From NCBI GenBank assembly GCA_905234395.1, contig CAJOHG010000001.1:1-64000 (forward strand): 64,000 nucleotides of DNA, in the 5' to 3' direction. Within the stretch, counting starts at the first letter, position 1. Every line of letters starts with the position of its first letter. Source of the DNA: an uncultured Selenomonadaceae bacterium (GTDB lineage: Bacteria > Bacillota > Negativicutes > Selenomonadales > Selenomonadaceae). A program made the translations under genes and the position numbers. Positions 29,628-63,595 of the stretch are shown piece after piece. The notes beneath the pieces are model-generated. The model ran no database searches and was not told where the DNA came from. It saw only the letters and a program-made list of their open reading frames with translations.

Positions 29628-31464
29628 ATGTTTAAAATGAATTGGGGGGGGGGGTAGGAGTCGCGGACAAGTCCTGGTATTTTATGCCTTCATGATACCG
29701 TTGCTGTTTATTCTCGTCGGCGTGGCATTGGACTTGGGCTGGTATTATTTTAACGTGTCACGTTTGCAGAATGCGGCGGACGCGGCGGTTTTAGCCGGAG
29801 CACAAGATTTGGTTGCGCGTAATAATACGATTTTCAAAGGATACAATATCACCCTCGTTGAAAACAAATTTTCAGGGTATCCCGATCCCGACGACGATAT
29901 TTCCACTGCCGAAAGCGATGAAGTTGCCGCCGATTACGTCCGCAAAAATTTATCTTCCGATGCTGCGGCGACGACTCTCAAAGACGATTTGGGCAATGCC
30001 TACGCTTACACCATGATTGATAATTGGAGTCCGAATGCCTCTGAAGTTACAATGACACCGCACTTGGGACAGGACGGCGACGTTTTTTATTACGTTGTCC
30101 ATTTGACGGAAAACATCAGACATTTCCTCATGCCCGGCAGATACGAACCGATACCCGCGCCCGTCGTTGCCGTAGCCATGCTTACAAAACAAATTATTCC
30201 CGATAATGCTCGTCCTCAAGGCGGCGGAGCAGAAAACAAGGTTGAAGGTACCGACATTTTGACTGATATGTACAACTTGGAAGATAAATCCGTCACGAGA
30301 AACTGGGAAGTCCAAACCTATGCGTCACCGGCGGACTTTGCCAAATTTTACAATGGAGCAACAAAATATGTCGGTCATGTGAATGAATACCAAGACAGAA
30401 AAGTTAATTATGACAAAAACGTCAGTACTCGTTATCGTTATGAAAAGGCGGAAGTGAAAGCAGGCAGTGCCAATCAAGGCAGTTCGCAAGGAACGATGTA
30501 CAACTATACCGAGGCACAAGGGATTGATTCTTTAAATCTCGACTTCAAGGCAGATGTTCAATTTACAAAGGAGTGGTCGCAGGCTGAATGGACAGATTTT
30601 GACATAAAATACAGTGATCCGTCCGCAGTCACTTATTTAAATGGTGCCAACAGCAACACTGCCGATTTAAGAATTCACTCTACATTTAATTTCACGACTC
30701 CTTACACCGTGCGGCAAAATCGCACTGAAGAGCAAGTTGCACAAAATCCCGAAGATGCTTTATATGTGCGCATCGAAAGCGAACCAATTAAGCCTTTGAG
30801 CTTTAGAACCACTCACAGGTCTTACAGCTCGGTGCGCCAGATATTTTTAAACATAAATCAACCTAACACGGGTGAGAACGATCGACCGCTTGTATTTTTC
30901 TATGAAGGTCCGGAGAAAATCAATGGTCAGTCAAGCGTCAGAGATTCTCAACCTTTTGTCTTGACCCTCAACGCCGATGCTCGCGTCATCTTGTTTGCGC
31001 CTTACAGTCCCGTAGTCATCAGAGGCAACAATCATAAAATGCAAGGCTTTGTTATCGCCAAAGAATTTGTACAGTTGACGACAGCAAGCGATTATTATCA
31101 AGAAGGCGGCAAATATTACAACAGCTCCGCCAAGACAAAAGAATATTTTTACGTTCCTGAAGAAGGTACTTTCGTCGATTCGGTTGGCAATGTTCAAACG
31201 AAACCGCTTGAAAATGCTACTCGTGACAGAAACGACAGCGAAGTATTTCCGGAAGGAGCGGTAACCAGAATTCAAAATGAGACTTATGAGAAGGTTTATG
31301 ATTTTTCAGTCTTTGGTCTCGCCGAAGGTTCACATTATGATTCATTTAAAATAGCGGAACTCAAGAGAAATGTTTATACATACCTGGACAATTATACAGA
31401 TGAAGAAAAAGATGATTCTGTGGACATGTTCTTTACGACAATGCGAGCAAGTTGGATTGATTAA
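29628..31464 (+). pseudogene. TadG/TadE-like surface protein, out of frame at a poly-G tract (phase-OFF)
   Basis: The natural start is ATG 29628 (AAGGAG upstream), but a run of 11 G (29644-29654) leads into a TAG after nine codons. With ten G the frame would read through to RSRGQVLVFYAFMIPLLFILVGVALDLG, the hydrophobic N-terminal helix of Tad pilus-associated TadE/TadG-like proteins, giving 611 residues. The rest is open to 31464; an internal ATG at 29692 would start inside the helix without an RBS. NVSRLQNAADAAVLAGAQ is the family signature. The long C-terminal part is extracytoplasmic and unrecognised. Probably a reversible switch rather than a dead gene. Confidence 0.8.
29644..29654 (+). 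repeat. Poly-G tract (11 G) in the Tad-like gene
   Basis: Eleven consecutive G seven codons into the gene. Ten or thirteen G restore the frame; eleven gives TAG. Confidence 0.9.
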
Positions 31465-43417: not shown

Positions 43418-43435
43418 TTTGTAGGAGGACTTTTT

Positions 43436-44569
43436 ATGGATGTGTCAAAAATTTCCGTGCTCATTCCGCTGTACAATCGCAAGCATTATATCGCACAGTG
43501 CATTGACAGCGTATTGAATCAAACGTTCAAAGATTGGGAGCTTATCATTCGAGACGACGGCTCAACCGACGGTTCCCCCGAATTCGTCGAGGAAAATTAC
43601 GCCGATGAAATTTCTTCGGGCAAAATCAAACTCCGTCGCAATGAGAAAAATATCGGCGAATTTCCTACCGAAAACATATTGATTGAAGAGGCAACGGGCA
43701 AATATATAATGATTCTGCACAATGACGACGCATATCTGTCGCACGCATTGGAGCACATGTACACCGTTGCCGAGGAATATAATGCCGACGTCGTGCACAG
43801 TTCAATGCGCATTGGTACCGCTCCCGACGGCATCATTGAGACCGGAATTGATTTGAACATTGCTCACGACAGAATGTTGAAACGCACTTATAACGGCTCT
43901 TCTTTGGACAAAATCGTACTCGTGCCCGACGACCCTGCGATACGTTTCAACGAATGGAACGAGGGCGGCATTTTTATCGACACACAATACAATATCTTCA
44001 GCAGGAAGTTTCTAATGGAAAGTGGTTTGCGTTTTGAAATTTTCGGCGAAAGGTTCAGTGACAACAGAATCTTTGCATTAAAGTGGATCATGAAAGCTCC
44101 TGTCATAGTCAAAACACTTGAGCCTTTTTACATTCATCGCAATGCCTACGACTCACAATCCCGTGAAAAATATTCTCTCGAAGACATTGCGGAATTTATC
44201 TCCGCTTTTGTTGAACTTTCATATCATCTTGACGAATATTTTGCTTCAGAAGAATTCTTCCGCGACAACAAAGAAGCTCAGTATCTTACGCGAGTTCATT
44301 TGTTTTCTGTTCTCGATCGATTTTGGCTTCACAAGCGCGGCATTTATAAAACGGGCGTCACATTCGATTTGAATGACGCTGTGGAAGCAGTCTTTAGAAA
44401 ATATTTTGGCGGAGGTGCCGCATATGTGACGTTCCTCTTCCATTGGGCTCATTGTATGATGGCAGAGCGTCCTCTTGGAAGAATAGTATCCCCCCCCCCA
44501 AGTCAACTCCCAGACCAAATCAATAGACTTTATAGAGCTGTTCGATATCAAGATGCCTTGACTGCGTAA
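43436..44569 (+). CDS. Family 2 glycosyltransferase with poly-C tract near its C-terminus
   Basis: A 377-residue GT2 enzyme: ISVLIPLYNRKHYIAQCIDSVLNQT, DDGSTDGS and the DxD-like LHNDDAYLS. After residue ~350 the gene contains ten C (44490-44499) encoding SPPPS, followed by 21 codons ending DALTA. Nine C would give a different tail of about 20 residues and eleven C a shorter one, so tract slippage would change only the last ~25 residues. AGGAGG lies before the ATG. purB starts 18 nt downstream. It is a different subfamily from the triplet at 18-21 kb. Confidence 0.85.
   Translation: MDVSKISVLIPLYNRKHYIAQCIDSVLNQTFKDWELIIRDDGSTDGSPEFVEENYADEISSGKIKLRRNEKNIGEFPTENILIEEATGKYIMILHNDDAYLSHALEHMYTVAEEYNADVVHSSMRIGTAPDGIIETGIDLNIAHDRMLKRTYNGSSLDKIVLVPDDPAIRFNEWNEGGIFIDTQYNIFSRKFLMESGLRFEIFGERFSDNRIFALKWIMKAPVIVKTLEPFYIHRNAYDSQSREKYSLEDIAEFISAFVELSYHLDEYFASEEFFRDNKEAQYLTRVHLFSVLDRFWLHKRGIYKTGVTFDLNDAVEAVFRKYFGGGAAYVTFLFHWAHCMMAERPLGRIVSPPPSQLPDQINRLYRAVRYQDALTA
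44490..44499 (+). repeat. Poly-C tract (10 C) in a glycosyltransferase gene
   Basis: Ten consecutive C in the codons for SPPP. It is one of three G/C homopolymers of ten or more bases in the window, all inside surface-related genes. Confidence 0.9.
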
Positions 44570-49323: not shown

Positions 49324-49335
49324 GGCGGTGATCGT

Positions 49336-50213
49336 TTGAAGATTTACGACTGCTTTACGTTCTACAACGAGTTTGAACTTTTGGAGCTGCGCTTGAAATC
49401 GCTGTGGGACGTTGTAGATTATTTTGTCATTGTCGAGGCGGACAGGAAGCATACGGGCGAGCCGAAAGTTTTTAATTTTTGGACGCGGCAAGAAGACTTC
49501 AAAGAATTTTTGCCGAAGCTACGATTTGTTCCCGCCTATTTGTCGAATGTTCCGTTCAAAGGCACGGGCGATTGGTCGATTGAAAATGCTCAACGCAACG
49601 CGATAATGAACGGACTTATCGACGCGCAACCCGACGACTTGATTTTAGTCAGCGACTTGGACGAAATACCTGCGCCCGATGTTTTGAAAAATTTGGACAA
49701 AGCGTCATTGACTGACCGCAAAGACGTAACCGCGCTTGAACTTTTGGAAAGAGGCGGCGAGGTAGCCATGAGCCAAGAATTTTTCTATTACCATTTCGAT
49801 TGGATAAGCAAGGCAAGATGGCAAGGAACGACACTAATCAAACGAAAATTCATTCGGACGCCTCAGCACCTGCGCAATCGTCGCAACAAAATTTCACGCG
49901 TGGGGGGGGGGATCACTTCAGCTACATGGGCGGCGTTGACCGCGTGATAAACAAAATGACTTCCATTGTTGACGGCAATGAGCTTGTTGAAAAATCGGGC
50001 GGGAAATTTATCGACAGACAACACGTTGAAGCGGCCATGGCGAACGGCGCGGACGTTTACGGTCGGAAAAATGTTGCTGCACAATTTCTGCCTTACGACG
50101 CACACAACATTCGCTTGCCGCACATCGACGAGTTCTTGAAAAAATATCCTCACTTTCTGCGCGAGCCGGAAAAATATTTTAAGGAGCAACCTGATGGAAC
50201 AAATGACGTATAA
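49336..50213 (+). pseudogene. Family 17-type glycosyltransferase (copy 2), frameshifted at a poly-G tract (phase-OFF)
   Basis: The 5' part (TTG start, KIYDCFTFYNEFELLELRL ... ILVSDLDEIPAPD) matches copy 1. At 49902-49911 ten G shift the frame, so translation ends at 49947 with 203 residues, whereas DHFSYMGGVDRVINKMTSI, the counterpart of copy 1's HFSYMGGVDRVIDK, continues in another frame to 50213. Eleven or eight G would give a ~292- or 291-residue enzyme. The 3' end overlaps purM by 20 nt. Everything outside the tract looks intact, favouring a switch over decay. Confidence 0.85.
49902..49911 (+). repeat. Poly-G tract (10 G) in glycosyltransferase copy 2
   Basis: Ten consecutive G; copy 1 has no tract at the matching place (it reads ATCGACGGCGGTTAT). 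Eight or eleven G restore the frame. Confidence 0.9.
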
Positions 50214-56096: not shown

Positions 56097-56834
56097 ATGA
56101 AATCAATTTGTGTTATTCCTGCGCGATATTCGTCGACGCGTCTGCCCGGTAAACCGCTCAAAGATATTTGCGGCGTGCCGATGATTTGTCGAGTTTGGCA
56201 ACGTGCAAGCCGTGCAAAATCCGTCGCCGATGTTATCGTGGCGACTGACGACGAGAGAATTCTTCAAGCCGTCGAAAATCATTCGGGACGTGCGATGATG
56301 ACGCGTGCCGACCATAAAACCGGAACCGATCGCCTTGCCGAAGTTGCCGAGAAATTTCCCGACGCTGATGTTATCGTCAATGTGCAGGGCGATGAACCGT
56401 TGATTGAGCCGAGCTTGATTGATGAACTTGTCGCCGAATTTGAAAGTGACGCTGAACTTCAGATGGCGACCGTTGCGACTGAACTCACCGACGCCGACGA
56501 AATGAAAAATCCCAATAATGTCAAAGTCGTGCTTGACCGCTACAACGACGCGCTGTATTTTTCTCGCTCGCTGATACCTTATCCGCGCAACGCCGGCAAC
56601 TCAAAAGTTTTCAAGCACATCGGCATTTACGCTTATCGTCGACAATTTCTGATTGACTATGCGAAAATGGAACCGACGCCGCTTGAAAAGTCCGAATCGC
56701 TTGAGCAACTTCGCGCACTGGAGAACGGATTCACGATTCGCGTGATAAAATCGTCGTGCAGATTTGTCGGCGTCGACACGGAAGAAGATTTGCAACTCGT
56801 CAACGAAATTTATCAGCGGGAGATGACAACATGA
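56097..56834 (+). CDS. kdsB: 3-deoxy-manno-octulosonate cytidylyltransferase
   Basis: A 245-residue CMP-KDO synthetase that activates KDO for transfer to lipid [19 protein letters not shown] is the nucleotide-binding N-terminus; [12 protein letters not shown] carries the Mg-binding Asp; [11 protein letters not shown] and [12 protein letters not shown] complete the family pattern. The stop codon overlaps the kdsA start (ATGA). This gene begins an uninterrupted LPS assembly operon running off the right edge. Confidence 0.97.
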
Positions 56835-57652
56835 ACATCGTTAAAATTGGCGGCATTGAATTCGGCGGCGGAAAATTGATTTTGCTTGCCGGGCCGTGCG
56901 TGCTTGAAGGTTACGAGCGCAGTTTGATGATTGGTCGGCGCATCAAAGAGATCGCTGAACGTTTGAATATCCCGTACATTTTCAAGGCGTCGTTCGACAA
57001 AGCAAATCGTTCGTCGATAAAAAGTTATCGTGGTCCCGGCATGGTCGAAGGCTTGAAAATTTTGGCGGACATCAAACGCGAGCTGAACGTTCCAATCGTC
57101 ACGGACATTCACGAAACTTATCAAGCCGCGCCCGTCGCTGAAGTCGCCGACATTTTGCAGATACCCGCGTTCCTTTGCAGACAGACCGATTTGCTTGTCG
57201 CCGCCGCGAAGACCGGCAAGGTTGTCAACGTCAAGAAGGCTCAATTTCTTTCTGCGCGGGACATGATAAACGTCGTCGAGAAGCTTAGAGCCGGCGGCAC
57301 GGAAAAAATTTTATTGACGGAGCGCGGAACGTCGTTTGGCTACAATAATCTTGTCGTCGATATGCGCGGACTGCCGATTATGCGCGGCTTTAATTGTCCC
57401 GTGATTTTCGACGGCACTCACAGCGTACAACTTCCCGGCGGTGCAGGAACATCTTCGGGCGGTCAACGCGAATTCGTCGAGCCGTTGGTTAGAGCGGCAG
57501 TCGCGGTTGGTGTCGACGGTTTATTTTTGGAAGTGCACGATAATCCCGCAGAAGGACTTTCGGACGGCGCGAACATGATTCCGTTGGACAAATTGGAAAA
57601 ACTTTTGGTGAACGCATTAAAAATTCACGAGGCGCACCTTTTAAAAAGTTGA
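56831..57652 (+). CDS. kdsA: 3-deoxy-8-phosphooctulonate synthase
   Basis: A 273-residue KDO-8-phosphate synthase joining arabinose-5-phosphate and phosphoenolpyruvate. [22 protein letters not shown] and [12 protein letters not shown] form the PEP and A5P sites, followed by [18 protein letters not shown]-like [15 protein letters not shown] and [12 protein letters not shown]. The Cys in AGPC may bind metal, whereas metal-independent enzymes have Asn at the equivalent place; this is inferred from family knowledge. The start overlaps kdsB by 4 nt. Confidence 0.97.
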
Positions 57653-57772: not shown

Positions 57773-58741
57773 ATGATTAGAGAAAAAGCGATTGAAACTT
57801 TGCAGATTGAGGCGGCGGCGATTGAACATTTAATCCCGCGCATTGACGATGAATTTATTGCGGCGGTCAAAAAAATTATGAGCTGTCGCGGACGCGTGGC
57901 AGTGACGGGCATGGGAAAATCCGGACACGTCGGCAGAAAAATTTCGGCGACTCTTGCGTCAACGGGCACGCCGTCATTTTTCATGCACCCGGCAGAAGCT
58001 TATCACGGCGATTTGGGAATGCTCACCGAACGCGACATTTTAATTGCAATTTCAAACAGCGGCGAATCGTCGGAGATCGTCAACATCTTGCCCGTCGTCA
58101 GAAGAATCGGCGCGGAAATTATTGCAATGTGCGGCAAACGATCTTCGACGCTCGGAAAGAACTGCGATTATTTTATCAACATCGGCGTTGAACGCGAGGC
58201 TTGTCCGTTGGGACTTGCACCTACTGCGTCGACGACCGCGACACTTGCAATGGGCGATGCTTTGGCGATGGCTTTAATGGACGAGAAAAATTTTACGTCG
58301 AACGATTTTGCGCTGTTCCATCCCGGCGGCGCACTCGGCAGAAAACTTTTGCTCACCGTCGGAGACGTCATGCACAGCGGCAACGATAATCCGATTGTCA
58401 AAGTCGGTGCCACGGCGAAGGACGCGCTCTTTGAAATGACGGCTAAAGGTCTCGGCGCAGTTTCCGTCGTCGATGAGCAAAATAAATTCGTCGGACTCGT
58501 CACGGACGGAATCATTCGTCGTGCATTGGAAAAGAAACGTTCTTTCATTGATGAGCCTGTCGAGCATATCATGTTCAAGGAGCCGTTGATTATCAGCGCG
58601 GACAAATTGGCGGCGGCGGCATTGTCGGTTATGGAGAAACATAAACCGCGACCCGTGACCGTCTTGCCCGTCATTGATGAAAAAAATTTTCCCGTCGGCA
58701 TGATTCACTTGACCGATTTGTTGCGTCAAGGAGTGGTTTGA
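57773..58741 (+). CDS. kdsD: Arabinose-5-phosphate isomerase (KpsF/GutQ type)
   Basis: A 322-residue sugar isomerase supplying arabinose-5-phosphate for KdsA. Residues 1-200 form the SIS domain (VTGMGKSGHVGRKISATLASTGTPSFFMHPAEA.HGDLG, SNSGESSEIV); residues 205-322 hold two CBS domains. GGAGG lies before the ATG; an in-frame ATG 96 nt upstream has no RBS. The 120-bp gap after kdsA is the largest in this part of the operon, and no convincing promoter was found in it. Confidence 0.96.
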   Translation: MIREKAIETLQIEAAAIEHLIPRIDDEFIAAVKKIMSCRGRVAVTGMGKSGHVGRKISATLASTGTPSFFMHPAEAYHGDLGMLTERDILIAISNSGESSEIVNILPVVRRIGAEIIAMCGKRSSTLGKNCDYFINIGVEREACPLGLAPTASTTATLAMGDALAMALMDEKNFTSNDFALFHPGGALGRKLLLTVGDVMHSGNDNPIVKVGATAKDALFEMTAKGLGAVSVVDEQNKFVGLVTDGIIRRALEKKRSFIDEPVEHIMFKEPLIISADKLAAAALSVMEKHKPRPVTVLPVIDEKNFPVGMIHLTDLLRQGVV

Positions 58742-59314
58742 ATGAAAATTTCGGGCGACGCTCTCAATCGGGCGCAACGTGTCAAGCTGATAATCTTCGA
58801 CGTGGACGGCGTGCTTACTGACGGCGGAATTTATCACGGTGCGAACGGCGAATTGTTCAAACGTTTTCATTGCCGCGACGGTTTCGGAATAACGCTTGCT
58901 CACTCGTGCGGCTTGAAGACCGCGATAATCACGGGCAGGACTTCGCAGATGACTTCCTATCGCGCCGCCGAATTAAAAATTTCCGCCGTCATGCAAGGGC
59001 AGATGAACAAACGCGACGCTTACAAAAAAATCAAGACGCAATTCGATTTGACTGACGACGAGATTTGCTACGTTGCCGACGACGTGATTGACTTGCCGGT
59101 TTTCGTGCAAGTCGGTTTTCGTGCGGCAGTAGGTGACGCCTCGCCCGAAGTCATTGAACGCGCTCATTTTGTCGCAAATAATTTCGGTGGGCACGGTGCA
59201 GTTCGCGAAATCGTAGAATTTATTTTGAAGGCAAAAGGATTTTGGCAGGCGATTATCGAACGCTACAGCGCACCCGAATTCGACGACAAAGAGCTCACGG
59301 CGATGAATCAGTGA
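58742..59314 (+). CDS. kdsC: KDO-8-phosphate phosphatase (HAD superfamily)
   Basis: A 190-residue KdsC-type phosphatase. Motif I is IFDVDGVLTDGG (catalytic Asp near residue 19), motif II ITGRTS, and motif III YVADDVIDLPVF. It removes phosphate from KDO-8-P to give KDO. The ATG starts directly after the kdsD stop (TGAATG). The last 19 codons (SAPEFDDKELTAMNQ end) are duplicated 118 bp downstream. Length otherwise fits the family. Confidence 0.96.
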   Translation: MKISGDALNRAQRVKLIIFDVDGVLTDGGIYHGANGELFKRFHCRDGFGITLAHSCGLKTAIITGRTSQMTSYRAAELKISAVMQGQMNKRDAYKKIKTQFDLTDDEICYVADDVIDLPVFVQVGFRAAVGDASPEVIERAHFVANNFGGHGAVREIVEFILKAKGFWQAIIERYSAPEFDDKELTAMNQ

Positions 59315-59432
59315 AATTTTCACGGTCATCAATCGGTTGCAAAGCAATACCGTTGGATGCAACGTCACGTTGCTCGAACGCTACAGCGCACACAAATTCG
59401 ACGACAAAGAATTGACCGCGATGAATCAGTGA
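59256..59432 (+). repeat. Duplicated kdsC tail (59-bp repeat, 118-bp period)
   Basis: Bases 59256-59314, the end of kdsC, and 59374-59432 match apart from about six positions. The second copy lacks the rest of the gene and leads into the RBS of the next gene (GTGAGGAGAAATTTAATG). Immediately before it, 59349-59373 is a 25-bp sequence also found reversed at 33491-33515. Confidence 0.9.
59349..59373. repeat. 25-bp repeat with palindromic core, shared with 33491-33515
   Basis: The sequence containing GCAACGTCACGTTGC is identical, in reverse orientation, to 33491-33515 inside the activase gene. The core is a 15-bp palindrome (GCAACGT-S-ACGTTGC). It abuts exactly the start of the duplicated kdsC tail. 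Confidence 0.75.
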
Positions 59433-59443
59433 GGAGAAATTTA

Positions 59444-60727
59444 ATGATTGAACTTTCGGGCTTGAGAAAATATAACACGCCGAACAATCGCACGCGGCTT
59501 GAGGCAGACATAAATTTTTCGGACATGGACTCACCTTATCCGCTCAAAACGATTTATTTCGATACTGATAAAGAAAACGCCGATATGCTCGACGATGAAT
59601 CGTATAACGCCTTTGTGCTGGTGCCGTTGTTTGTGGCGATGTTTCATAAGCAAGACTTGCACATTCGCGGCAAGATTTCTAAACGTCTCTATCAAAATGT
59701 CAAGTGGTATATCCAAAGAATTTTCTGTGACTATTCGCCGTTGCTCTCGCCCGTGAATGTCACCGTTGACGGCTTCACCGAAATTGCACAGACCGATAAG
59801 ATAATCGGAACGGGCATTTCAAGCGGAGTCGATTCATTGACGACACTCTACGATAAATTCATCTGCGAAGACGATCCCGATTATAAACTTAACGCGCTGT
59901 TCTACTTCTGTCATGATTGGAAAAACTATTCAACGCTTTCAAAGGAGCATTTCAACGATTCTAATCGCAAACTTAACGCTATGTCTTAAATAAGTGACTA
60001 CGATTTGAATTCAGACGTTTCGGCGGGACAATCCATGTTTAAAACTCTGTTCCCTAAAAATCAAAGGATCGCTGCGGAGCTGAACTTGCCCTGCTATCCT
60101 CTGGAAACGAATTTGCCGCTCTTCAATATAGTGATAAGCAAGCTGAAAGGCAGATATATTCCCTTGAGCTATATCGCGTTGTATTCTTGCGTTTTGAGTT
60201 TTGGCAAAAAGATTTCCAAATATTACATTGCAAGCGCGTTGAATTATGAGCAGGAGAAAATTTTCCGCGATGCCTCGCACGATAAGGATATGTCGGAGTT
60301 TTGCGAGATGTATCTCGTGCCGCTTATCAGTACGGAGCAAACTGAATTGATATTGGACGGTGCACAATATCGGCGCGTGGACAAGGTGAAAAGGATTGCC
60401 GATTGGGACATTGCGCGAAAATATTTGAATGTTTGTTGGCATAATCACGATGACGGCTCGAATTGCGGAGAGTGCGGAAAATGTTTACGGACTTTGTTGA
60501 CGCCGGAGATTTTGGGCAAGCTCGACAATTTCGCTCACATTTTCGACATGGACAGCTATAAAAAAGCCGCGCCGGGTTATAAACGTCGTTGCGTGAAAAA
60601 ATACAAACAAGCTCCTTTTGAATCGGAGAACGTCGACTTTGCCAAAGAAAATAATTTTCCTATGCCGACCTTGAAAAAATCCGTTAAATCTGTTGGCGAT
60701 AAAAAACTTGCTGCTACGAAGCACTAG
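59444..60727 (+). pseudogene. QueC-like PP-loop ATPase gene (copy 1), interrupted by a nonsense codon
   Basis: A 427-codon frame starting at ATG 59444 (AGGAG upstream) and broken only by TAA at 59987-59989. The N-terminal ~120 residues are unrecognised. GTGISSGVDSLTTLYDKF is a PP-loop ATP-pyrophosphatase motif; the C-terminal half has CWHNHDDGSNCGECGKCLRT, a C-x9-C-x2-C-x2-C pattern like the zinc site of QueC (7-cyano-7-deazaguanine synthase). It may activate a carboxylate or modify a base or sugar as an adenylate. The KDO/LPS operon position suggests surface modification, but this is inference. Confidence 0.7.
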
Positions 60728-60736
60728 GAGGATTTT

Positions 60737-61904
60737 ATGATTGAACTTTCGGGCTTGAGAAGATACATCACGCCAAACAATCGGGCGCGGCTTGAAGCCG
60801 ACATAAAATTTTTCGACATTGACGCGATTTGCCCGGCGGACACGATTTACATTGAGATCGACGCGAATTACGGCGGAATGCTCGTCAACGACACCTGCGA
60901 CCCGTTTGCACTCGTCGCGCTGTATCTTGCAATGCACCACAAAACCGATTTGCGAATTCGCGGCAACGTCTCCAAACGTCTCTATAAAAATTTGACGTGG
61001 TACGCGCAAAAAATTCTGTGCGATTATTCAAGCGACCTCGTGCCCGTGAAAATCATCGTCGACGGTTTTGCTCCGACAAAAATCACCGGGACTTTAATCG
61101 GTGCGGGAATTTCTTGCGGCGTCGATTCGCTCACCACGCTTTACGACAGATTCATTGCCGAAAACGATCCCGACTACAAAATCAACGCGCTGTTCTTTTT
61201 CAACTGCGGTGCCAACGGAAATTACACGAATTCTTTCACGCAGAGCATGACGCGGAGCCGACTTCAACGCGCCGAATCACTTGCCGCTGTGCTTTGTAGA
61301 GACGAATCTTCATCAGTTCAAGTTCACCGAGCCGATGGAAACGTTTATTTTTTTCGCGACCTATGGTTGCATACTTGCTCTTCAAAATGCCGTCAAGCGT
61401 TATTACGTCGCGGGAAGTTACAGTTATCGCGAAGTCAAAGCCGACGACGTTCAATATGCTTGCCACGACCTTGCAAAATTTTGCGAGACGTTCTTCATTC
61501 CGCTGATTCAAACGGAGCGCACGGAGTTGATTGTTGACGGTTGCCAATATCTGCGCGTCGAAAAGGTTAAGAAGCTTGCGGATTGGCACATTGCGCAAAA
61601 ATATTTGAACGTTTGCTCAACACATACCGAGGATTCTTCAAACTGCAGTCTCTGTCAAAAATGTTTGCGGACTTTGTTGACGCTGGAAATTTTGGGCAAG
61701 CTCGACGACTTCGCGAAAATTTTTGACGTGGAAAAATATCGGAGCGAGTCTCTCAATCACAAGGTCTTTTGCGTGATGAACGGCGACAAAGATATTTTCA
61801 GCCGAGAGATTCTCGATTTGGCGACGGAATATAATTTTCCAATGCCCGCGCACCGCGATTGTTATGCTTTGAACAATCACTTCATCGTTGTCGACGACAA
61901 ATAA
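60737..61904 (+). pseudogene. QueC-like PP-loop ATPase gene (copy 2), frameshifted with internal deletion
   Basis: A paralogue of copy 1, starting MIELSGLRRYITPNNRARLEAD with AGGAGG upstream. The PP-loop motif is GAGISCGVDSLTTLYDRF. Near 61250, after SFTQSM, the frame shifts; the second half (LPLCFVETNLHQFKF, then CSTHTEDSSNCSLCQKCLRT) lies in another frame to 61904. Against copy 1 about 28 residues are missing here. The zinc-type C-x9-C-x2-C-x2-C motif is kept. It is therefore probably inactive. Confidence 0.75.
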
Positions 61905-61920: not shown

Positions 61921-62847
61921 ATGCTTTACAACACGCTGATGCTTATGAGCAGATTGATACGGCTCCTGCCCTACGACGCGCTTTTGGCTTTGGGACGGGT
62001 GCTGGGAAATTTGTATTACCTGCTCATCAGGAAACAGCGTGAACGGGCGGTGGCGCAAATGATGCCTGCGCTTGAAATTTCCGAATCGGAAGCTCGTCGG
62101 CTTGTCAAAGAGTCGTTCGTAAATTTGGCGCGCAACGTCCTGGATATTTTTTACATGCCGAACCTCAACGAGAAAAATTTGTCGCAGTACATTGAAATTG
62201 ATCACCTTGAACGCATGAAGGCGGCTCTCGACGAAGATAACGGCGTCGTGGTTTTAACCGGACATATCGGCACATGGGAATGGTTAAGCGCGGCTTTCAC
62301 GTTGAACGGTCTGCCCGTCACTGCCATTGCCAAACTTCAACCCAATGCCGAATATTCTCGCGTGCTTGACGATTTGCGCAAGACGATTCGTGTAGAAATT
62401 TTCAATCGCGGCACAAACGAATTGCGTGCGGCAGGTCGTGCACTCAAGGACGGAAAAATTCTCGGCTTTCTCGCTGACCAAGACGCCGGGCCCGGCGGAG
62501 CGTTCATAAAATTTTTGGGCAAGGTCGCATCAACACCGTTAGGCCCGGCAGTTTTCGCACGACGTTTTAACGCGCCCGTTGTTCCCGCATTTATCTTGCG
62601 CAAGGAAAATGGTCGGCACCTTGTCAAAATCGGCGAACCAATGCATTTTGAAGACAGCGGCGATACCGACGCGGATCTCCTGCGCTTTACCGAGAAGATG
62701 ACGAAAATTTTGGAGAACGTCATTCGTGAAAATCCTACGCAGTGGCTGTGGTTCCAAAAGCGTTGGAATACGCCGCCCGAACTGAAAAAGACCAATAAGC
62801 ATCACACCGTCAGAGCGCGGAGAAAATCTTCGGAGGACGACACATGA
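61921..62847 (+). CDS. lpxL: Lipid A lauroyl/KDO2-lipid IVA acyltransferase family protein
   Basis: A 308-residue membrane-associated acyltransferase of the LpxL/HtrB family that adds a secondary acyl chain to lipid A. VVVLTGHIGTWEW contains the catalytic H-x4-(D/E)-type motif (HIGTWE). GFLADQDAGPGGAFIKFLGKVASTPLGPA is the conserved substrate loop, and NPTQWLWFQKRWNTPP is the usual C-terminal signature. GGAGG precedes the ATG. The last ~38 codons are duplicated immediately downstream. Confidence 0.93.
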   Translation: MLYNTLMLMSRLIRLLPYDALLALGRVLGNLYYLLIRKQRERAVAQMMPALEISESEARRLVKESFVNLARNVLDIFYMPNLNEKNLSQYIEIDHLERMKAALDEDNGVVVLTGHIGTWEWLSAAFTLNGLPVTAIAKLQPNAEYSRVLDDLRKTIRVEIFNRGTNELRAAGRALKDGKILGFLADQDAGPGGAFIKFLGKVASTPLGPAVFARRFNAPVVPAFILRKENGRHLVKIGEPMHFEDSGDTDADLLRFTEKMTKILENVIRENPTQWLWFQKRWNTPPELKKTNKHHTVRARRKSSEDDT

Positions 62848-63023
62848 ACACGCAGGAAAAACTTTCAGCAGACACCGACGCTTATCTCCTGCGTTTCACC
62901 GGCGAAAATCCTACGCAGTGGCTGTGGTTTCAAAAGCGTTGGAATACGCCGCCCGAACTGAAAAAGACCAATAAGCATCACACCGTCAGAGCGCGGAGAA
63001 AATCTTCGGAGGACGACACATGA
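62844..63023 (+). CDS. Chimeric 59-residue ORF: lptC-like start fused to duplicated lpxL tail
   Basis: An ATG overlapping the lpxL stop begins MNTQEKLSA, resembling the lptC start (MSTRGKILA), then reads DTDAYLLRFTGENPTQWLWF and onwards, a copy of the lpxL C-terminus with an 11-codon deletion. Its stop overlaps the lptC start just as that of lpxL would. The period is 176 bp. It probably results from a tandem duplication spanning the lpxL-lptC junction; a separate function is doubtful, but translation is plausible. Confidence 0.6.
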   Translation: MNTQEKLSADTDAYLLRFTGENPTQWLWFQKRWNTPPELKKTNKHHTVRARRKSSEDDT

Positions 63024-63595
63024 GCACACGCGGAAAAATTTTGGCAGCAACAATCGCAATTCTTTTTGTGTGCTTAATCGTTTGGGTTGTGCGCACGACG
63101 CCCGACACTCCGCCGCCGATAGAACAGTTCAATCCGCCGACCGTCATGGAATACGAGGGCAACAAGCTTACCGAAGAAAAAGACGGCGTGATAATTTGGG
63201 AATTGACTTGTGATAAAATGCGCGTCGACACCATCACGCAGAACGTTGAGCTTGAGGGCATTAATGCGAAATTTTTTCAGCACGACGAAGAAGAAAAAAC
63301 TTGGGAACTCACGGCGAAAACCGGCGTTTATTATCAGAGCGAAGGCATAATTCACGTAGAAGGCGATGTTGTCGTCACGAACAGCGACGGCGCAAATTTG
63401 CAGAGCGAGCAACTTGAATGGCTGTCCGAAGAAGAAAAACTTATCGCCACGGGCAACGTCCGCATTGTCAAGGACGATATACGCGCGTTCGGCGATACTG
63501 CCTATTCAAACGACAACTTTCAACATTTCGGGCTTTTAGGTCATGCAAAAATTTTGAAAGGCGTTAAAGACGACGAGCCGACTTCCAATCAATAA
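63020..63595 (+). CDS. lptC: LPS export periplasmic protein LptC
   Basis: A 191-residue protein with one N-terminal membrane anchor (ILAATIAILFVCLIVWVV) and a periplasmic beta-jellyroll of the LptC/OstA type (GINAKFFQHDEEEKTWELTA, VEGDVVVTNSDGANLQSEQLEW). LptC links the LptB2FG transporter to LptA for LPS transport across the periplasm. The ATG at 63020 overlaps the preceding short frame. lptA follows after 13 nt. Confidence 0.92.
   Translation: MSTRGKILAATIAILFVCLIVWVVRTTPDTPPPIEQFNPPTVMEYEGNKLTEEKDGVIIWELTCDKMRVDTITQNVELEGINAKFFQHDEEEKTWELTAKTGVYYQSEGIIHVEGDVVVTNSDGANLQSEQLEWLSEEEKLIATGNVRIVKDDIRAFGDTAYSNDNFQHFGLLGHAKILKGVKDDEPTSNQ

Follow-up and report, generated by a model that had tools for sequence, protein, structure and literature searches.

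QueC-type PP-loop proteins were sorted in a 2026 sequence-network survey of PF06508 into QueC, QatC, Cap9, LarE, WbpG-type, GMP-synthase and a few other groups (PMC13329287). In QueC (PDB 3bl5), a PP-loop core is combined with a C-terminal C-x8-CxxCxxC zinc site, and the motifs YxQxHxxE, VPxRN and YPDC bind 7-carboxy-7-deazaguanine (CDG) (PMC13329287). QatC, a component of qatABCD anti-phage defence (NF041925; PDB 9y01/9y02), consists of a QueC core with N- and C-terminal extensions (PMC13279940) that the survey calls unique, and its residue D63 has been named catalytic (PMC13329287). Cap9 of type IV CBASS (PDB 9nto) is a minimal ~185-aa core encoded beside CD-NTase that retains the QueC active-site signature (PMC13329287). 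The N-acetyl sugar amidotransferase (NASAT; WbpG/WbuX/LpNASAT, TIGR03573) is a PP-loop and tetracysteine zinc enzyme of LPS biosynthesis in which the four cysteines (CxxC..CxxC) precede the PP-loop (PMC10607449). The family described here joins QatC architecture and a QueC-type zinc site to a polysaccharide context, and it is uncatalogued. It is probably missing from the PF06508 survey (PMC13329287) because it lies under the PF06508 cut-off.

The window, by which we mean the whole 64,000-nucleotide stretch of DNA analysed, comes from a Quinella-type Selenomonadaceae MAG (a rumen bacterium; 157 contigs, 2.83 Mb), whose closest named relatives are Selenomonadaceae MAGs, including Quinella sp. 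2Q5 and 1Q7. The rumen genus Quinella has been investigated in the context of low methane emission (PMC9585023). From position 56097, the order of genes on the + strand is kdsB, kdsA, a kdsD/kpsF-type isomerase gene, kdsC, copy 1, copy 2, lpxL, lptC and an lptA-like gene. ORF translation identified the genes for a kdsB-type CMP-Kdo synthase (56097..56834), a kdsA-type Kdo-8-phosphate synthase (56828..57652, its start at an internal ATG being an estimate) and a kdsD/kpsF-type arabinose-5-phosphate isomerase (57773..58741). The Kdo-8-phosphate phosphatase gene kdsC (58742..59314) scored over the cut-off of NCBIfam TIGR01670, the lpxL-type lipid A acyltransferase gene (61921..62847) matched PF03279 with 160.8 bits, and the lptC-type LPS export gene (63020..63595) is an ORF whose orthologue in L015 matches PF06835. 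The kds and lpx genes flanking copies 1 and 2 are all intact. Directly 5' of copy 1 lies a partial second copy of the kdsC 3' end (59374..59432, + strand; 59 nt, 90% identical), such that the last 59 nt of kdsC recur 118 nt downstream at the edge of the inserted genes (59256-59432). A similar duplication is seen further along, where the 3' end of lpxL recurs before lptC (137 nt, 95% identical, spacing 176; 62728-63040), and the sister genome G020 (L145) has two extra lpxL tails of the same kind.

The first-pass annotation had placed two paralogues with a PP-loop and a zinc-type cysteine cluster between kdsC and lpxL, and both are found there on the + strand, copy 1 at 59444..60727 and copy 2 at 60737..61904. 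The motifs are visible in the translations: copy 1 carries the PP-loop SSGVDS (59819..59836) and a C-x9-CxxCxxC cluster (60434..60484), while copy 2 carries SCGVDS (61112..61129) and the same type of cluster (61614..61664). Copy 1 translates as MIELSGLRKY..GISSGVDS..AMS*ISDY..LNVCWHNHDDGSNCGECGKCLRT, with a single in-frame stop; copy 2 reads ..GISCGVDS.. to ~61276 and continues in a different frame from ~61281 (..LNVCSTHTEDSSNCSLCQKCLRT). The proposed resemblance to QueC is real, albeit weak by sequence, as PF06508 aligned with the 3' part of copy 1 only, with 17.9 bits against a cut-off of 22; DUF6395 (PF19932) likewise stayed below its cut-off of 25 with copy 1 (E 0.1, 13.1 bits). Matches of MnmA and GuaA to PF06508 in the same genome were ordinary. 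The genes are also, as first suggested, not tied to queuosine synthesis: in place of queD and queE neighbours, the window has kds, lpx and lpt genes, and the true QueC of this genome sits apart from the locus on contig 4.

Both copies are pseudogenes, and their interest rests with the family to which they belong. DNA alignment with relatives placed an 81-nt insertion (27 codons) in copy 1 (59938..60018, ends approximate), and the one TAA that had been noticed in this gene (59987-59989) lies within it. Neither the insertion nor its TAA is present in any of the relatives, and no second place in the genome was found from which the insertion could have come. Copy 2 had been described as carrying a frameshift and a deletion; both are present, but they amount to one event, a 17-nt frameshifting deletion at approximately 61276..61281 that is likewise shared by no relative. 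The earlier suggestion of regulation by recoding did not survive this comparison. Read-through of the TAA was rejected, given that the TAA is shared by no relative and sits within the insertion; both lesions are of a simple kind. Functional split halves are unlikely because the breaks fall within the PP-loop domain. In two relatives (G033 and G017) flagged as having an internal TAA, this codon turned out to be the natural terminator of the gene.

Outside the lesions, both copies retain every catalytic-type residue, and their branch lengths in the tree are ordinary. The dN/dS-type ratios of the two halves of copy 2 against intact relatives (0.24/0.91 and 0.20/1.17) resemble that between intact copies (0.17/0.78), a rough comparison given that dS is near saturation. 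For the tree and the rate estimate, the parts of each window copy were joined across the lesion; repeating the tree with the parts kept separate returned the same clades. On the strength of the retained residues, the branch lengths and these similar ratios, both copies look to have been inactivated recently in this genome. One might instead attribute the TAA and the deletion to errors in a MAG split over 157 contigs, with both genes intact in the cell. We regard this as scarcely credible, as short-read errors do not typically take the form of an 81-nt insertion or a 17-nt deletion and the neighbouring kds and lpx genes are intact throughout.

Intact homologues, which the first-pass annotation had proposed to look for, were found in sister genomes and beyond, never in a queuosine operon. 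They are ~395 aa long and occupy the kdsC-lpxL interval of many sister genomes, the LPS-type copy being present in 23 of the 66 genomes of the genus. Among the loci inspected, this interval holds 0 to 3 copies of the gene, and where there is none kdsC adjoins lpxL. One such case is the sister G020, which lacks the gene even though its lpxL and kdsC are 98.7% and 97.4% identical, respectively, to those of the window. Phylogenetic analysis resolved the copies into two old, supported paralogue clades: clade A comprises window copy 1 and the first tandem copies, while clade B (100% support) comprises window copy 2 and the second copies. That first and second tandem copies form two old clades indicates that the tandem pair arose early in the genus and was then lost piecemeal.

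A family scan of GTDB species genomes recovered 80 loci, with Selenomonadaceae first. Relatives of ~40-45% identity occur in Lachnospiraceae, Oscillospiraceae, Synergistaceae and Bacteroidales, and those below 30% in Bacteroidetes, Clostridia, Verrucomicrobia, Alphaproteobacteria and a few archaea. Outside the genus, a surface-polysaccharide gene cluster lies no more than 4 genes away in 48 of 58 loci, and a clear polysaccharide neighbour is missing in the other 10. Neighbours at these 58 loci include a flippase (25), members of the pyruvyl-transferase/FrhB group (20), GT2 (13), a MenD-like TPP enzyme (12) and an NAD epimerase (11), and a Pfam search of 80 immediate neighbours agreed, with PS_pyruv_trans, Polysacc_synt, FrhB, glycosyltransferases, Epimerase, PGA_cap, ATPgrasp_ST and Acyl_transf_3 among the families matched. 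Many of these neighbours are generic for polysaccharide loci and name no reaction. No queuosine operon was seen around any family member. With lesions in both window copies and this distribution of relatives, the original view that a function has been lost here, in a family of LPS and surface-polysaccharide loci, holds. In sister genomes, a domain of the polysaccharide pyruvyl transferase type was observed beside a distant relative or fused to it. IMG/VR viral contigs contained 18 distant relatives (L110-L127), some beside glycosyltransferase-like genes, and these possibly represent phage-borne surface modification; no family relative was found in phage records.

These same observations bear on whether the kdsC-lpxL interval is simply an insertion hot spot, the true substrate being O-antigen, capsule or another surface polymer and not Kdo or lipid A. 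The variation from 0 to 3 copies at one site, the partial kdsC repeat bordering the insertion and the presence of relatives in O-antigen or capsule-type loci would all fit such an explanation. We nevertheless consider it unlikely, inasmuch as the kdsC-lpxL position is kept in most of the sister genomes that hold the gene, and by both clades.

We compared 48 diverse members with known families and structures. Among the matches listed, no member passed a Pfam, NCBIfam or PADLOC cut-off, and PF06508 was not among the Pfam families matched at E 0.1. DUF6395 (PF19932), which has no function assigned in Pfam, was matched weakly by 11 of the 48 (best E 1.3e-7), the Cys-cluster region included; most members had no match to it, and all matches to it in the window's own genome fell below cut-off. 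The papers searched included none on DUF6395 or on QueC-like LPS enzymes. The PP-loop takes the form S-[SC]-GVDS, a relaxed version of the QueC motif SGGxDS, in which S125, G127 and D129 are invariant. It occupies residues 125-130 and is followed by C303, C313, C316 and C319, also invariant, with a first spacing of x9 in the first member and x8-9 typically. The PP-loop as a whole and the four cysteines are invariant or nearly so across these members.

An AlphaFold2 model of an intact member was confident (pLDDT 93.6). The best match among solved structures was QatC of the QatB-QatC complex (VIA-align; Z 15.1, rmsd 4.8, 309 residues, model residues 1..394), whereas QueC (Z 12.3, 184 residues) and Cap9 (Z 11.4, 172 residues) matched the core only. 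Residues 118-395 can provide at most 278 of the 309 pairs with QatC, and at least 31 pairs therefore fall in the N-terminal domain. The additional N-terminal domain that had been noticed is indeed present, but it is not a complete unknown, as the whole protein aligns with QatC. On its own, this domain gave no clear match, with weak RNase H-like matches at Z <5. Foldseek against the PDB returned no match at E <0.001, a PDB search by sequence returned nothing, and a viral structure library gave phage QueC-type matches only. Profile-profile scores were weak (QueC, E 9e-4; QatC, E 0.007), and the QatC alignment spans the N-domain through the PP-loop, where the conserved Asp54 falls opposite the Asp in IDxxxLA, a motif of QatC. 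Judging by the spacing to the next QatC motif, that Asp seems to be the catalytic D63. In the predicted model, the family has the QatC architecture of an N-terminal alpha/beta extension, a QueC core and C-terminal helices.

With QatC the family roughly shares its length, the N-terminal extension, a PP-loop core with zinc cysteines and the C-terminal helices. In contrast to the QatC zinc variant C(x)19CGxCxxRR, its cysteines are spaced x8-9 and its other motifs are different, and its genes reside in polysaccharide loci rather than defence operons. The QatC profile NF041925 had no match in the window's own genome or among the NCBIfam matches of the 48 members, no qatA, qatB or qatD was found at the window or Quinella loci, and neither KAP nor TatD was among the 25 commonest neighbour families of the distant loci. 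The family shares with QueC the PP-loop core and the C-terminal C-x8-CxxCxxC zinc motif, and with Cap9 the QueC-type core. Unlike QueC, it scores below the PF06508 cut-off, has extra N- and C-terminal domains and does not occur in queuosine operons. The motifs YxQxHxxE, VPxRN and YPDC are absent from the family consensus, although true QueC proteins from this genus and from its class do contain them. By the reasoning of PMC13329287, absence of these CDG-binding motifs makes preQ0 synthesis by the family unlikely.

The structural match raises the question of whether the enzyme might instead modify proteins in the manner of QatC and Cap9, attaching a 7-deazaguanine or some other acid to the N-terminus, its position among LPS genes being incidental or related to phage defence. 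QatC is the best full-length match, N-terminal glycines are the known or presumed targets of QatC and Cap9 (PMC13279940, PMC13329287), and both the patchy presence of the gene and the poly-G switching described below would suit an anti-phage role. However, we recognised no QatB-like partner, the genes occurring singly or as tandems in the kdsC-lpxL interval; the genus has no match to the QatC model; PADLOC gave no meaningful match for the 48 members; and the CDG-recognition signature of QueC and Cap9 is not in the family consensus. We view protein modification as decidedly improbable. Still more doubtful, in our estimation, is sulfur transfer, in which a PP-loop-activated carboxylate would be thiolated as in LarE, yielding a thio-sugar or thioacid on a glycan. 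TtuA, NcsA, LarE and MnmA do appear among the structural matches, but QueC, QatC and Cap9 score well above these sulfur transferases, and the cysteines after the PP-loop are of the QueC zinc type (C-x8/9-CxxCxxC).

By analogy, the closest functional counterpart is NASAT. The cysteines of the family follow the PP-loop as in QueC, whereas those of NASAT are N-terminal to it, and profile similarity between the two is confined to the PP-loop region. TIGR03573 was not found among the NCBIfam matches of the 48 members, nor at E 1e-30 in the window's own genome. Given the absence of the CDG motifs and the position of the cysteine cluster after the PP-loop, the family most likely works like an LPS-biosynthesis amidotransferase yet is built like QatC. 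We put at even chances a reading in which copies 1 and 2 are dead copies of an uncatalogued surface-glycan enzyme of QatC architecture and QueC-type PP-loop, one that would be acyl-activating and probably amide or amidine forming, with Kdo or the inner core its possible target in Quinella. The sequence family, its intact homologues, position and loss, the predicted fold and the genomic context are observations on which this reading builds; the chemistry and substrate are what we infer.

Having bound ATP at S-x-GVDS, the intact enzyme would adenylate a glycan precursor at a carboxylate (or another carbonyl), releasing PPi. Transfer of the activated group to a nitrogen nucleophile would then yield a decoration of the amide or amidine type. 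The four-Cys zinc site would complete the enzyme core, and the N-terminal domain, in which the conserved Asp lies, may contribute to forming the substrate site in the way it does in QatC. The Quinella gene appears to have entered the Kdo/lipid A/LPS-export operon, which makes Kdo or the inner core the likely substrate. An early duplication would have produced clades A and B, followed by gain, loss and probable poly-G switching between lineages, and by recent loss of both copies in the window genome. As no member has a known activity, both the substrate and the nitrogen nucleophile are conjectural. More tentatively, and with somewhat less than even confidence, we propose that the family represents a widespread, uncatalogued class of QatC architecture, sharing ancestry with QatC, that decorates surface glycans by forming amides, amidines or some other acyl conjugate and is phase-variable in the Kdo/lipid A operon of rumen Selenomonadaceae. 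If glycan tailoring is correct, QatC-type enzymes gain a context outside defence, an unassigned step is added to LPS and capsule chemistry, and a phase-variable surface trait is indicated in Quinella.

Homopolymeric tracts provide a further indication of surface function. A run of at least 9 G occurs at gene nucleotides 34-38 in 3 of 31 LPS-type copies of the genus, compared to 0.015 expected. These G9/G10 tracts fall at codons 12-14, which encode part of the turn linking strands one and two of the N-domain. The G9 tract of L030 is in frame, while the G10 tracts of L039/L223 and L217 are out of frame, although homopolymer lengths in MAGs may err by one base, leaving the on or off state of each genome uncertain. 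Judged from these tracts, the sister copies are likely switched by poly-G slippage, a form of phase variation. Together with the tracts of a third paralogue and of the window described below, they follow the pattern known from phase-variable surface genes, in support of a surface role. Such switching does seem to apply to the copies of other species and not to window copies 1 and 2. The papers searched included none that treats poly-G phase variation in Selenomonas or Negativicutes.

A third paralogue lies outside the LPS operon (L029:956-2121; L027, minus strand, ~1351-2300; L106:6640-7850; L007:1000-2367), and adjoins a pyruvate:ferredoxin oxidoreductase-type gene in L007 and L029. In three species it carries tracts of G9, G8 and G7 immediately 5' of the PP-loop, and at each of them the N-domain and the PP-loop domain meet in different frames. 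The representative in the window's own genome (L007) has an interrupted tract, a further frameshift and a cysK-like remnant fused downstream.

The window itself contains three tracts of at least 10 G/C, and nine-mers were observed 7 times compared to 0.04 in shuffles. A glycosyltransferase family 2 gene (43433-44566) has a C10 tract (44490-44499) close to its 3' end. A G10 tract (49902-49911) splits a glycosyltransferase family 17 gene (49324-50210) into two frames, and this gene looks like a phase-variable gene in its off state. A G11 tract (29644-29654) follows just after the possible start of a TadE/G-like pilus-assembly gene (29641-31461), the upstream ATG being out of frame. In sister genomes, G-tracts of 9 to 13 were likewise observed downstream of lpxL (L160:546, L154:2528 and L167:3380), that of L160 lying near the start of lptC.
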